From contig JAGFWP010000024.1 of NCBI GenBank assembly GCA_017639935.1, positions 1 through 41,980 on the forward strand: DNA of 41,980 nucleotides. Direction: 5' to 3'. Under the pieces are notes generated by a model. It saw nothing but the letters and a program-made list of their open reading frames with translations. It ran no database searches and was not told the origin of the DNA. Below, piece after piece: positions 1 to 18,322 of the stretch (within the stretch, counting starts at the first letter, position 1; each line of letters begins with the position of its first letter). Position numbers and translations under genes: made by a program. The DNA is from Pelagibacteraceae bacterium (GTDB lineage Bacteria; Pseudomonadota; Alphaproteobacteria; HIMB59; GCA-002718135).

Positions 1-127
1 CATATAATTCTTTAGGTAAATTATTTGTTTTTTCTAAAAGTTCTTCATATTGCATGAGTTCATTTTTCACAAACGATCTCGTTGTTTGTATTAAAAGATT
101 TTGCTCTTCAGAAAGATCAAAATTCAT
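1..127 (-). CDS. Acyl-CoA dehydrogenase family protein, N-terminal fragment (runs off window)
   Basis: Reverse-strand reading from ATG at 127: MNFDLSEEQNLLIQTTRSFVKNELMQYEELLEKTNNLPKELY..., typical acyl-CoA dehydrogenase N-terminus. Confidence 0.7.
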   Translation of the reverse strand, partial: MNFDLSEEQNLLIQTTRSFVKNELMQYEELLEKTNNLPKELY

Positions 128-162: not shown

Positions 163-190
163 ATACCACCAAACACAAGGAATGTTGAGG
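163..190 (+). repeat. Junction repeat copy 1: ATACCACCAAA-CACAAG-GAATGTTGAGG
   Basis: Ungapped alignment with four other copies at 830, 1483, 1966 and 2402; 18 of 28 columns invariant. Confidence 0.9.
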
Positions 191-229
191 TTCAATATCT
201 TTATTTTTAGAAACCAGTTAAATAAAATA

Positions 230-820
230 TTAGTTTTTAGCCCATTTGATTGAATCTTCCATTCGATCATCCCCCCAAAAGTTTTCATTTTCATATATAA
301 AAGTGGGGCTACCAAATATTTTTTTTTGCCGAGCTAAATCAGTATTTGCCTCATACATATTATCAATAGGTTCAGCATTAGCTTCATTCATAGTTTTTTC
401 ATGATTTAAGTTCAATAATTTAAAAATTTCAGAAATATTAGGTTCAACTGCCGGCTCTTTACCCTCTTGAAACCAACGTTTATATGTCAATCTAATATAT
501 TCTACACCCCATCCTTCTTTTAAACCTAGTATTGCAATTTTGTTAGCTAAATCAAATTCGGTTAATGGATAAGGAACTGGTACCTTTGCAAAAAAACCAT
601 AAAATTTTGCCCTTCGTTCTATATCCCTCCACATATAGTCTACTTTGTTTTTTTTATTTGGAGGAAAAGGAACATTATCCATTTCTTTCATTATTTTTCT
701 TACGCTAAAAGGTTTCCAAGAAAATTTTACTTGATGTTTTTTCTCAACATCTAAAATTCTTGTTACAGAAAGATAAGTATACGTACTTCCTATAGAAAAC
801 CAAAATTCAATATTTTTCAT
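230..820 (-). CDS. 2-hydroxychromene-2-carboxylate isomerase / DsbA-like thioredoxin-fold protein
   Basis: FWFSIGSTYTYLSVTRI N-terminus and IFGSPTFIYENENFWGDDRM C-terminal motif; ATG at 820 preferred over TTG at 823. Confidence 0.75.
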   Translation of the reverse strand: MKNIEFWFSIGSTYTYLSVTRILDVEKKHQVKFSWKPFSVRKIMKEMDNVPFPPNKKNKVDYMWRDIERRAKFYGFFAKVPVPYPLTEFDLANKIAILGLKEGWGVEYIRLTYKRWFQEGKEPAVEPNISEIFKLLNLNHEKTMNEANAEPIDNMYEANTDLARQKKIFGSPTFIYENENFWGDDRMEDSIKWAKN

Positions 821-829
821 CAACTCATC

Positions 830-857
830 TTACCATCAACCACAAGAAATGTTGAGG
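830..857 (+). repeat. Junction repeat copy 2: TTACCATCAAC-CACAAG-AAATGTTGAGG
   Basis: Same 28-bp repeat; flanking bases give near-perfect inverted arms TACCATCAAC/GTTGAGGGTA (9/10). Confidence 0.9.
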
Positions 858-907
858 GTAAAAAAATTGAAGTTTGTACTAAAATAATTATATACTAATA
901 TGTAAAT

Positions 908-1477
908 ATGAATGAAAGGACCAAAACTATATTAGATTTTTGGTTCCTACAAACTTCTCATAAAGAAAAATTTGGTAATAACAAAACTTTTGATAATAAA
1001 ATTAGAGATAATTTTTTAGATGACTATCAAAAAGCAATAAAAAATGAATACGATTATTGGCTTGATAATGCTTCTGAATGTCTTGCTTTAATAATTTTAC
1101 TTGATCAATTTTCTCGTAATTTGTTTAGAAATAATCCTGAAGCATTTGCGATGGATAATAAAGCTCGCCTAGTTGCTAATCATGCAATTGACAAAGGATA
1201 TTGTGAAAAATTAACTAACGATCAATTAATATTCATATTTTTACCTTTTATGCATAGTGAAGAATTAAAAGATCAGATTTATTGCGATAAATTAATAGAT
1301 ACTTATTTAAAAAACCATAAAAGCTACAAAGAGGCAAAAAAATTTTCAAAATTGCATTATGATATAATTAATGAATTTGGAAGATTTCCTTACCGAAACA
1401 AAGTTTTGGGAAGAAAAAATACAACAAAGGAAAAAGAATATCTAAAATCAACTCATCATAATTTTTTTAATATATAA
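908..1477 (+). CDS. DUF924 family protein
   Basis: TILDFWF start, LDQFSRNLFRNNPEAFAMD and FLPFMHSE motifs characteristic of DUF924. Confidence 0.8.
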   Translation: MNERTKTILDFWFLQTSHKEKFGNNKTFDNKIRDNFLDDYQKAIKNEYDYWLDNASECLALIILLDQFSRNLFRNNPEAFAMDNKARLVANHAIDKGYCEKLTNDQLIFIFLPFMHSEELKDQIYCDKLIDTYLKNHKSYKEAKKFSKLHYDIINEFGRFPYRNKVLGRKNTTKEKEYLKSTHHNFFNI

Positions 1478-1482
1478 TCTTC

Positions 1483-1510
1483 CTACCTCCAAACACGAGG
1501 AATGTTGAAT
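1483..1510 (+). repeat. Junction repeat copy 3: CTACCTCCAAA-CACGAG-GAATGTTGAAT
   Basis: Same 28-bp repeat, lying between two gene 3' ends. Confidence 0.85.
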
Positions 1511-1528
1511 AGATAGTTTTATAAATTA

Positions 1529-1954
1529 TCACAAATCAATATTGTAATGAGTAAGTTTTTTTTTTAAATATTCTCTATCCATTTTACAATCCTTATAACC
1601 CTGATTTATTATATCAACATACCATCTTTGTGGTGATTTGAATGAATACTGTCTTTTAATAATATAGAACATAACCTTCACACCGTTAAGTGTAAAAAAA
1701 TCTTTTGTATATTTAGTTGGAAACCTTTCATAGTAATCAAGTTCCTTCTCATCATTTGCAGAAATTTTCCAAATCCCGCCTGGAACTTTTGAATCTGTTT
1801 TTTTTACAATATTTGCTACACCATAATTTCCGTTTATCGCACAAAAAGAAAGTTTATAACCATCCAGAAAAACGTTTTTTATGTATTTAGAATTTTTACA
1901 TCTTTCTTTCATTCGCTCATGGTTAAGATTGCTTCCGTAGGCGAAATACAACAT
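1529..1954 (-). CDS. Gamma-glutamylcyclotransferase-like (AIG2-like) protein
   Basis: N-terminal MLYFAYGSNLN motif and overall length. Confidence 0.75.
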   Translation of the reverse strand: MLYFAYGSNLNHERMKERCKNSKYIKNVFLDGYKLSFCAINGNYGVANIVKKTDSKVPGGIWKISANDEKELDYYERFPTKYTKDFFTLNGVKVMFYIIKRQYSFKSPQRWYVDIINQGYKDCKMDREYLKKKLTHYNIDL

Positions 1955-1965
1955 ATCTTATTATC

Positions 1966-1993
1966 CTACCATCAACCAAGATTAATGTTGAGT
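1966..1993 (+). repeat. Junction repeat copy 4: CTACCATCAAC-CAAGAT-TAATGTTGAGT
   Basis: Same 28-bp repeat with diverged central bases. Confidence 0.85.
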
Positions 1994-2014
1994 GTAAATT
2001 GAAAGTAACAAGAA

Positions 2015-2368
2015 TTATAATAAATTTAATATGTTTTCCGGAGGCCTTCCAATCACTGCCTTGCTATTTTTTACAACAATAGGTCTCTGCAACAATTTAG
2101 GAAATTTTATTAAAAACTCTATTAATTCATCATCACTTAAGTTTTCATTTTTAAGATTATTTTTTTTATATTCGTCTTCTCCTGTCCTTAGAATATCTCT
2201 TATGGATAATCCAAGTTTTGAAAGTAAATTATTAATTTCAGCTTTAGACAGCTTGTTTAAAAGATATAAAATAATTATCGGCTCAATATTTTTGCTTTTA
2301 ATAATTTCTAGAGCTTTTCTTGATTTGCTGCATTTAGGGTTATGATAAATTGTTATCTTATTATTCAT
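2015..2368 (-). CDS. arsC: ArsC family reductase
   Basis: HNPKCSKSRKALEII, RTGEDEYK and LIKFPKLLQRPIVV motifs of the ArsC family. Confidence 0.75.
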   Translation of the reverse strand: MNNKITIYHNPKCSKSRKALEIIKSKNIEPIIILYLLNKLSKAEINNLLSKLGLSIRDILRTGEDEYKKNNLKNENLSDDELIEFLIKFPKLLQRPIVVKNSKAVIGRPPENILNLL

Positions 2369-2401
2369 TAATAAAAAATTGATTATATTTCAAATCTTAC
2401 C

Positions 2402-2429
2402 CTACCACCAACCACAAGGAATGTTGAGT
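2402..2429 (+). repeat. Junction repeat copy 5: CTACCACCAAC-CACAAG-GAATGTTGAGT
   Basis: Best match to consensus; last copy, 32 bp before tRNA-Thr. Confidence 0.9.
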
Positions 2430-2461: not shown

Positions 2462-2536
2462 GCCGCAGTGGCTCAGTGGTAGAGCACGTCATTGGTAATG
2501 ACGGGGTCGGTGGTTCAATTCCACCCTGCGGCACCA
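2462..2536 (+). tRNA. tRNA-Thr (anticodon GGT)
   Basis: GCCGCAG...CTGCGGC acceptor stem, anticodon stem CGTCA-TTGGTAA-TGACG, GGTTCAATTCC T-arm, encoded CCA. Confidence 0.95.
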
Positions 2537-5903: not shown

Positions 5904-6980
5904 ATGAAAATTACATTAAATTTACTAACCATAATATTTTTTGTATCGGTTAGCCTTAGTTCAAATCCTGTTTCAGCAAAAAGAGCCGCCATTATCATTG
6001 ATTATGATACTCAAGAAGTGCTTTTCGAGGTTAATGCCGACACATTAAATTACCCGGCCTCGTTGGCTAAAATCATGACACTTTACATAGTATTTGATTA
6101 TTTAGACAAAAATAAACTTTCGTGGGATGCTAAAATGAAAGTATCCGAAACCGCCGCTTCCCGCTCACCCAGCAAACTATATTTAGAAAAAGATTCTTCA
6201 ATTAATGTCAGAGACGCTGTGATGGCTTTAATTGTGAAATCAGCAAACGATGTTGCTACTGTAATTGCCGAACATATAGCTGGGACGGAAAGAGATTTTG
6301 CCAAACTCATGACAAAGTATGCAAAACAAATTGGCATGGATAAAACAACATTTAAAAATGCTTCAGGCTTGCCCAACCGAGCGCAATTAACAACAGCCAG
6401 AGACATGGCTACACTATCATATTTTCTAATTAGGAATTTTCCTGAGGAATATAAACTTTTCAATAAAAAAAGATTTGTTTGGAAAGATAAAACATACAAG
6501 AATCATAATAAATTAATGAAATCATATGAGGGCGCAGATGGTATTAAAACTGGATATATCAAAGCTTCAGGTTTTCAATTAGCTTTTTCTGCAGTACGGG
6601 AAGAAAAAAGGTTAATAGGGATTTACTTTGGCGGCGATACAGGAAAACAACGTGACAAGTCACTTGCTTTCTTAATGGATAAGGAATTTGGCGAATTAAA
6701 TATAAATACAAAAAAAATTGAAAAGACTTTGCCCAGCTCTGGAAATTATAAGATAGTTGTAGGTACGTTTAAGTATAAGAAAAACGCAGAAAAACATTTA
6801 AAATTAATTCAACACAAATATCCTAAAACAACATCCAATAAAAACGCTCATATCGCGCTAATTAAGTCCAATGGAAGACAACTGTATGAATCCCGCTTTC
6901 AGTTTTTTACAAAAAAAGATGCTAAATCGGCTTGTGCCCGTTTAAAAAAATATAAACGAGATTGCTTCATTAGAGGTTAA
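5904..6980 (+). CDS. D-alanyl-D-alanine carboxypeptidase (penicillin-binding protein) with C-terminal SPOR-like domain
   Basis: YPASLAKIMT (SxxK), KSANDVA (SxN), DGIKTGYIK (KTG) motifs; C-terminal repeat-domain segment. Confidence 0.92.
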   Translation: MKITLNLLTIIFFVSVSLSSNPVSAKRAAIIIDYDTQEVLFEVNADTLNYPASLAKIMTLYIVFDYLDKNKLSWDAKMKVSETAASRSPSKLYLEKDSSINVRDAVMALIVKSANDVATVIAEHIAGTERDFAKLMTKYAKQIGMDKTTFKNASGLPNRAQLTTARDMATLSYFLIRNFPEEYKLFNKKRFVWKDKTYKNHNKLMKSYEGADGIKTGYIKASGFQLAFSAVREEKRLIGIYFGGDTGKQRDKSLAFLMDKEFGELNINTKKIEKTLPSSGNYKIVVGTFKYKKNAEKHLKLIQHKYPKTTSNKNAHIALIKSNGRQLYESRFQFFTKKDAKSACARLKKYKRDCFIRG

Positions 6981-17728: not shown

Positions 17729-18322
17729 TTAATTAAAATATTTTTCTAATTTTACTTTTATTTTATTAGGATCTGTAAGATGTACGGTTACAAAATTTAA
17801 TTTTTTTGCTGCCTCAATATTCTCTTTTTTATCATCCACAAATACGGTCTCCTCAGGAGTTAAATTGAATTTAGAAATTGCTAGTTCATATATTGCTATT
17901 TCAGGTTTAATTAATTTAACCTCTCCGGATAAAAGTAAACCATCAAATTTATTTAAAAAAGGATAATCATCCAACATTCCCACAAACGTTTCTTCTGACC
18001 AATTAGATAAAACATAGCACAAAAAATTTTTTGATTTTAAATCCAATAATAACTCAACAGAACATTGAAAAGTTGTTTTAATCATATTCCGATGATTGGC
18101 ATAATACATTTTTATTTCCTTGTCATACTGAGGAAATTTATTAATTAGTTCATATTCCGCATCTTTAATTAGCCTTCCCCTGTCTTGTTGGGCATTCCAT
18201 TCATCACTGCAAACATTTGTAAGAAAAAAATCCATTTCATCTACGGAAGAAAAAAAACTTTGATAATAATGTTTTGGGTTCCAATCAAAAAAAATGCCGC
18301 CCAAATCAAATAGAAATTTCAT
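17729..18322 (-). CDS. HAD superfamily hydrolase (IA type)
   Basis: FDLGGIFFDWN, VLSNWS, KPEIAIYELA, VFVDDKKENIEAA motifs. Confidence 0.85.
   Translation of the reverse strand: MKFLFDLGGIFFDWNPKHYYQSFFSSVDEMDFFLTNVCSDEWNAQQDRGRLIKDAEYELINKFPQYDKEIKMYYANHRNMIKTTFQCSVELLLDLKSKNFLCYVLSNWSEETFVGMLDDYPFLNKFDGLLLSGEVKLIKPEIAIYELAISKFNLTPEETVFVDDKKENIEAAKKLNFVTVHLTDPNKIKVKLEKYFN

Follow-up and report, generated by a model that had tools for sequence, protein, structure and literature searches.

A conserved 28-bp repeat at junctions between exchanged gene units in tRNA-linked islands of a marine alphaproteobacterial family

Introduction

In integrons, small and mostly single-gene units, largely in one orientation and sharing one conserved site, are arrayed beside a fixed end; the sites themselves (attC), recombined by the integrase IntI, are variable in sequence, 57 nt or more in length and folded, and are conserved at their outer core sites only. 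The pdif or dif modules of Acinetobacter, a XerCD system, have 28-bp-class sites that flank one to several genes and are chained in arrays, with alternating C/D and D/C site order (PMC12907356). Islands integrated at tRNA genes, including tycheposon-like ones, are marked by tyrosine integrases, partial tRNA copies and a Prim-Pol protein, while repetitive extragenic palindromic (REP) sequences and bacterial interspersed mosaic elements (BIMEs), with their REP-associated tyrosine transposases (RAYTs), are short dispersed intergenic repeats. Mobile promoters, or reused promoters, are near-identical short sequences found just upstream of unrelated genes. A 28-bp repeat that has something in common with each of these is described here from a contig of 41,980 nt (JAGFWP010000024.1, assembly GCA_017639935.1, a Pelagibacteraceae bacterium), hereafter called the window, in which five copies separate small genes next to a tRNA-Thr gene. 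A literature search found no description of this repeat.

The reading adopted here is that the repeat marks the junctions of a gene-cassette system borne by tRNA-linked islands, whose units are exchanged by recombination within the repeat; the probability of this reading is put at about 0.62. An earlier note, made from the window's sequence, had proposed a cassette array. In its favor are homology that stops at the repeat, units shared across genera, a fixed orientation and contig breaks at repeats; against it, no recombinase has been assigned to the site. Genomes compared are labeled G, contigs C and individual DNA stretches L. G000, the genome of the window, is a draft of 1.33 Mb in 70 contigs, 91.5% complete, and its contig C17 is the window in its entirety.

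Shared units and homology breaks at the repeat

In an all-against-all DNA comparison, the same passenger genes turned up at different places. The gamma-glutamylcyclotransferase-like (GGCT) unit of the window (1482–1989) matches G104:C69 (3–511), from a different genus, from repeat to repeat (87.4%), and the ArsC unit (2009–2429) matches G001:C10 (3654–4070; 87%). An EutQ-like cupin gene is common to G000:C2 and G001:C2 (95.8%) and an MGMT-like gene is shared at 99.3%; methyltransferase and GFA passengers each occur in three genomes, the GFA unit of G001:C1 lying between repeats, and a DUF1330 passenger occurs in two. Units common to distant genomes, and co-oriented units exchanged at the site, are features shared with integrons.

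Flanks of 200 bp were scored separately on each side of the repeat. Sixteen repeat pairs had a homologous flank, in every case on one side only (10 left, 6 right) and never on both. The other flank scored at background in all but two partly checkable pairs (for window copy 1483 against G104:C69 position 4, the left flank is not scorable because the contig ends there; one of the 16 pairs has a right flank of just 46 bp). These comparisons show that gene neighborhoods have been exchanged at the repeat; the reaction behind the exchange would be a recombination. Two repeats on G005:C100 set apart three segments, namely an ABC-transporter operon, a tRNA_edit (YbaK-like) gene and a gene for a 97-aa protein; among the matches listed, these segments match separate places in other genomes. 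The 8.1 kb leading up to the tRNA-Ser repeat region match between G020 and G042, beyond which the two differ (6.2 vs 1.4 kb).

The window locus and its counterparts in relatives

The five repeats of the window align without gaps, all on the + strand, at spacings of 667, 653, 483 and 436 bp and with 18 of 28 columns invariant. Exactly five copies are found at up to three mismatches, against none in shuffled windows, and no sixth copy appeared in the window at weak thresholds either. The positions, spacings and invariant columns given in the earlier note, and its report of no copy in the rest of the window, are all reproduced, and its identification of the flanking genes was upheld by Pfam matches, a translation (for the acyl-CoA dehydrogenase) and a tRNA call. 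The features are as follows.

1..127, − strand: acyl-CoA dehydrogenase gene, N-terminal part (cut by the contig end; translation MNFDLSEEQ...)
163..190, + strand: repeat copy 1, between the acyl-CoA dehydrogenase start and the HCCA-isomerase-like 3' end
230..823, − strand: DSBA/HCCA-isomerase-like gene (Pfam PF01323), conserved flank of the tRNA-Thr island in relatives
830..857, + strand: repeat copy 2, between the starts of the HCCA-isomerase-like and DUF924 genes; island edge on the HCCA side
908..1477, + strand: DUF924 gene unit (Pfam PF06041), opposite in orientation to its neighbors
1483..1510, + strand: repeat copy 3, between the convergent 3' ends of the DUF924 and GGCT genes
1529..1954, − strand: gamma-glutamylcyclotransferase-like (GGACT/GGCT) gene (Pfam PF06094)
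1966..1993, + strand: repeat copy 4, 5' of the GGCT gene
2015..2368, − strand: ArsC-family gene (Pfam PF03960)
2402..2429, + strand: repeat copy 5, 5' of the ArsC gene and 32 bp from tRNA-Thr
2462..2536, + strand: tRNA-Thr(GGT), conserved island anchor near pdxJ

In most relatives examined, tRNA-Thr(GGT) is likewise found near pdxJ. Beyond it, G079, G038, G058, G032 and G106 have a variable stretch of 1.7–10.7 kb without the repeat, reaching to an orthologue of the HCCA isomerase, after which comes an ABC-F gene, sometimes with one or two small genes between. The corresponding interval of the window holds the DUF924, GGCT and ArsC genes, each between repeats, and past the HCCA isomerase, at repeat 163, there is an acyl-CoA dehydrogenase rather than an ABC-F gene. 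The tRNA-Thr island of G001 contains a Rieske-type gene and a partial copy of tRNA-Thr, together with a GGCT gene that lacks the repeat; by eye, the similarity of this gene to the window's GGCT unit stops where the repeat begins. The earlier note had named an invariant gene order among relatives as grounds for giving up its proposal, but the orthologous locus is highly variable. Its list of four cassette passengers must be shortened: the DUF924, GGCT and ArsC genes do stand between repeats in a variable island, but in five relatives it is the HCCA isomerase that forms the island's conserved flank, so the window's units cannot all be newcomers.

The last 28 bases of another contig of the same genome, G000:C13 (12189–12216), are identical to window positions 100–127, at the start of the acyl-CoA dehydrogenase gene.

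Site structure and distribution

In an alignment of 47 copies from G000 and its relatives, positions 2–26 are near-invariant; conservation is weaker at the two edges (TTAYC ahead of the core, GKWAA behind it) and falls to background outside them. At about TTAYC-CTACCACCAACCACGAGGAATGTTGAGR-GTAAA, roughly 38 bp, the conserved site extends past the 28 bp, and with its edges it forms an interrupted dyad (TACC-nn-CAAC-N10-GTTG-nn-GGTA) whose spacer is as well conserved as its arms. The consensus did not fold beyond chance on either strand when compared with shuffles (z −0.18 and 0.04), and an attC-like fold was rejected; the one thing that folded well was a self-written, idealized symmetric 41-mer, which is no evidence. 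No Rfam RNA element was found at the repeats, and an Rfam-type element was rejected for that reason.

An array of co-oriented single-gene units invites comparison with integron cassettes, whose attC sites are recombined by IntI, and GTTGAGT in some copies fits the core GTTRRRY. The site is nonetheless short (28–38 bp), conserved throughout and without a fold beyond chance; it lies on the gene's 5' side, in arrays beside tRNA genes or att copies. Scans of three recombinases for an integron integrase gave nothing above the curated cut-off, only distant TIGR02249 matches below it. An integron proper is scarcely credible.

At up to three mismatches G000 holds at least 13 copies, against none for a reversed control, clustered on C17, C31, C2 and C24 and single on C51 and C52. 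A scan of the family matched 8 of 110 genomes at up to two mismatches and 9 of 110 with a shorter core at up to three, leaving 101 of the 110 without the repeat. The repeat-bearing genomes span four genera, and the core is identical across them; in the sister family none of 52 genomes has the repeat. A wider scan of 85,462 species genomes returned 23 stretches, all titled as marine metagenome or single-cell assemblies, among them AG-464-G03, AG-414-E06, MarineAlpha5 bins 3 and 5, SI047_bin126 and ERR599031_bin.40. Records L097, L102, L109 and L114, labeled as other taxa, are probably misbinned, judged by contig position and cargo. There was no match in 2.9 million viral contigs, and a phage origin was rejected accordingly.

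The search of the genome and its relatives recommended in the earlier note thus places the repeat elsewhere too, but largely within arrays in tRNA-linked islands. This is not the spread through ordinary gaps, in the manner of REP/BIME elements, that the note had set against its own proposal. Like those elements the repeat is short, dispersed and intergenic, but its copies are co-oriented at the junctions of shuffled units and form no strong hairpin, and the Y1 (RAYT) transposase domain PF01797 was found in none of 12 genomes (5 of 14 controls were positive). A RAYT/REP element was rejected for want of that transposase.

A nearly identical sequence, GTTCWTTGGCAC or close to it, comes after five of the repeats (L022 from 9464, L110 from 2343, L061 from 4164, L097 from 624, L109 at 1–4), in two cases with iterated words like GGAACA/GTGTTCC. 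This following sequence is possibly the end of one replicating element.

Orientation and position relative to genes

All neighboring repeat pairs less than 7 kb apart were tested for orientation, and 23 of 23 are co-oriented (p = 1.2e-7). Orientation is kept where genes flip, as do the DUF924 gene of the window and genes in L055 and L061, so that what the earlier note had observed at one locus holds throughout the set.

The genes also have a preferred arrangement. In a tally of 51 copies, the left-hand gene turns its 5' end to the repeat at 41 (about 80%) and the right-hand gene its 3' end at 42. The start codon is 7–12 bp from the repeat in 15 of the 41 5'-facing cases, often 9–11 bp from the core. 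In reverse complement the usual layout reads tRNA or att, repeat, gene, repeat, gene, and a AGGATAAT-like stretch resembling a Shine-Dalgarno sequence stands ahead of the start codon (AGGATAAT-n-ATG), which suggests that the repeat may serve in translation as a leader.

Because about 80% of copies are at the 5' end of a gene, with this Shine-Dalgarno-like stretch, a regulatory role is a serious partial rival to the cassette reading. The repeat would then be a 5' leader or operator that is used again and again: one conserved control region would stand before each gene of a set, as in a regulon or a "mobile promoter", and the genes would be shuffled from other causes. The dyad overlaps AGGATAAT, and the roles of several units concern glutathione or thiols (gshA, gshB, GFA, ArsC, GGACT). 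Most passengers are unrelated, however, and at ten copies the left-hand gene turns its 3' end to the repeat; five of the ten stand between convergent 3' ends (e.g., window 1483). Close homologues stand without the repeat in repeat-bearing genomes (GGCT in G001, SdpI-like and desaturase genes in G104); given these and the 3'-end copies, the repeat is not always upstream and kept with orthologues, as in a regulon. Unlike mobile promoters, moreover, the sharing takes in whole units of gene plus repeat, beyond the upstream sequence. A leader would also not predict the constant orientation where genes flip, the contig ends at repeats described below, or a spacer as conserved as the arms, which is unlike ordinary operators. 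A leader alone is therefore an unlikely explanation. The earlier note's view that the layout argues against a promoter was too strong in light of the 41 5'-facing copies, although the 3'-end copies and the fixed orientation do count against regulation. Junction and regulatory roles may coexist, because a site with its own ribosome-binding sequence would help to express a new unit.

tRNA-linked islands and contig ends

Terminal repeats adjoin tRNA genes or att copies: tRNA-Thr in the window, tRNA-Arg at 180 and 106 bp (L055, L058), tRNA-Ser at about 81 bp (L067, L068) and att copies at 223 and about 100 bp (L023, L066). In all of these the tRNA or att is to the right of the repeat; L062 has a sequence like a tRNA 3' end on the left. 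The C31 array of G000 lies inside a 12.8-kb element whose ends are a 54-bp perfect repeat of a tRNA-Gly end and which encodes a class A tyrosine integrase, an HTH_17 protein and a Prim-Pol/AAA_25 protein. The C2 array of the same genome lies between 205-bp copies at tRNA-Met, with an integrase of another class. Both have the direct-repeat tRNA ends and tyrosine integrase of tRNA-integrated islands; at the window locus the contig stops at base 1, so that just the tRNA-Thr end can be seen. Since arrays are found inside tRNA-bounded elements, the repeat is internal to them and distinct from the tRNA att site, and divides the island cargo into units.

Contig ends are unusually frequent at the repeat. 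On presumed metagenome-assembled contigs, 7 of 45 repeats are within 60 bp of an end, against 0.70 expected (p about 1e-5, an approximate value as copies are not independent, several being on one contig), and 13 of 45 are within 300 bp, against 3.45 expected; in two presumed single-cell genomes none of 16 is near an end (assembly type was assumed from names for some contigs). Several contig ends are within 20 bp of a repeat. Because assemblers stop where reads fork, this suggests that the repeat has different neighbors within one population, with some contribution from the general variability of the islands.

Islands in HIMB59 have been ascribed to homologous recombination (PMC10734472). The repeat might accordingly be a mere patch of microhomology used by RecA-dependent or illegitimate recombination in hypervariable tRNA islands; such islands are hypervariable without it as well, as in the five relatives above, and no enzyme is tied to it. 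Its core is however identical across genera amid unrelated flanks, which is not expected of neutral microhomology, and its copies are uniformly co-oriented. A length of 28–38 bp is also short for RecA exchange. Microhomology is considered improbable, more so than a leader.

Two further observations concern the islands. Tandem partial copies of tRNA-Thr or tRNA-Ser separate one or a few genes in L148 (12748–14555), L066 (7383–8973) and L067/L068 (7865–10173), and may represent a parallel form of accretion with tRNA fragments in place of the repeat. In L055 about 195 bp, comprising a repeat and sequence 5' of tRNA-Arg, is present twice (6109–6285 and 17732–17928; 90% identity), 11.6 kb apart, as if the array between the copies had been inserted there.

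Candidate recombinases

The tyrosine recombinases of ten genomes sort into two classes, A and B, besides one outlier and a core protein of 352 aa that most of these genomes have. Class A (at least 48% identity) occurs in the repeat-bearing G000, G005, G104 and G105; its association with repeat-bearing genomes is partial, and it is not claimed as the repeat's enzyme. The recombinases found in G000 are arm-domain integrases or Xer-like, and no classical XerC/XerD pair was seen among those compared. The serine resolvase domain PF00239 was found in 0 of 12 genomes (10 of 14 controls positive), and a serine-recombinase system was rejected on that basis. The earlier note had advised looking for a nearby or conserved tyrosine recombinase; islands do contain integrases, but none can be assigned to the repeat.

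Just upstream of the gene for the conserved 352-aa Xer-like recombinase is a candidate dif, a perfect 9-6-9 inverted repeat (TTACGATAA-CTGTAA-TTATCGTAA), present once per genome in 78 of 110 genomes (examples are L080–L085, L087, L089 and G079:C3:165908–165931). Recombinase and site look like a single-recombinase Xer/dif system of this clade. G000 is without that candidate dif; it has a diverged recombinase on C42 (L094; 323 aa, about 38% identical), with a different dyad, TAGGTTTGATAT-GGGAGAG-ATATCGAACCTA, upstream at bases ~900–935, as if its dif-like site and recombinase had changed together.

The repeat can itself be divided as 11+6+11, with a GAATGTTGAGG arm vaguely like a XerD arm, and arrays of single-gene modules are known from Acinetobacter (PMC12907356); it might then be a Xer/dif-type site used by the host Xer in a pdif-like module. 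The family's Xer-like recombinase, though, has its own candidate dif directly upstream, and the repeat is unlike that site, with 9 matches against a mean of 10.5 for shuffles; the host Xer/dif system was rejected for this reason. Most genomes with the candidate dif lack the repeat, and the repeats never alternate as the Acinetobacter sites do. A pdif-like module is thus highly improbable. The earlier note's impression of an integron- or pdif-like layout around a site matching neither has held up, in view of the missing attC-like fold and the dissimilarity to the candidate dif.

A proposed cassette system

In the cassette reading, the hosts would be a family of streamlined marine alphaproteobacteria, probably HIMB59/AEGEAN-169. 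Each unit would pair one repeat with, as a rule, a single gene, and in most units the start codon would be closely preceded by the repeat in reverse complement. Units would be joined head to tail in one orientation and gained, lost and exchanged through the repeat, most likely by conservative site-specific recombination carried out by an island-encoded tyrosine recombinase. We infer that recombination takes place inside the repeat, through a dedicated recombinase and a circular or linear cassette intermediate. More tentatively, this may be an undescribed cassette system, with a double-stranded site of 28–38 bp that is unrelated to attC or dif and also serves as a ribosome-binding leader, and with a putative tyrosine recombinase that uses this site to place single genes in tRNA-borne islands of streamlined bacteria abundant in the ocean.

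Several observations weigh against a cassette system. The class A integrase is found in seven repeat-free genomes as well, the two array-bearing elements on C31 and C2 carry different integrases, and among the recombinases compared none maps uniquely to the repeat. Neither an excised circle nor an empty and a filled site from the same strain was seen among the assembled genomes compared, most comparisons being between genera or species, so that intermediate steps are lost. The near-fixed distance from repeat to start codon in most units is as a regulatory leader would show, and general strain variation in islands could also account for the contig breaks.

As to larger cargo, contig G005:C80 (L059/L060; 21.5 kb) has NarH- and NarI-like nitrate reductase genes (by Pfam) with a same-orientation repeat near each end, and L110, from another genome, has a multicopper-oxidase gene (nirK-like by eye) near a repeat. 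These genes possibly belong to a large exchangeable block for nitrate and nitrite reduction.

The finding bears on how streamlined ocean bacteria go on exchanging adaptive genes although they have almost no mobile elements of the classical kinds. A concrete and testable route would be a defined site of exchange at which island cargo is cut into single genes. With a 25-bp probe, cassette pools could be read directly from metagenomes (the repeat-derived scan sequence is TAYCAYYAACYACRAGRRATGTTGA), and candidate exchangeable cargo is already marked, in genes for thiol metabolism, the arsenate-reductase family and nitrate reduction. If its recombinase is found, integrons and pdif modules could be joined by a third kind of cassette system.

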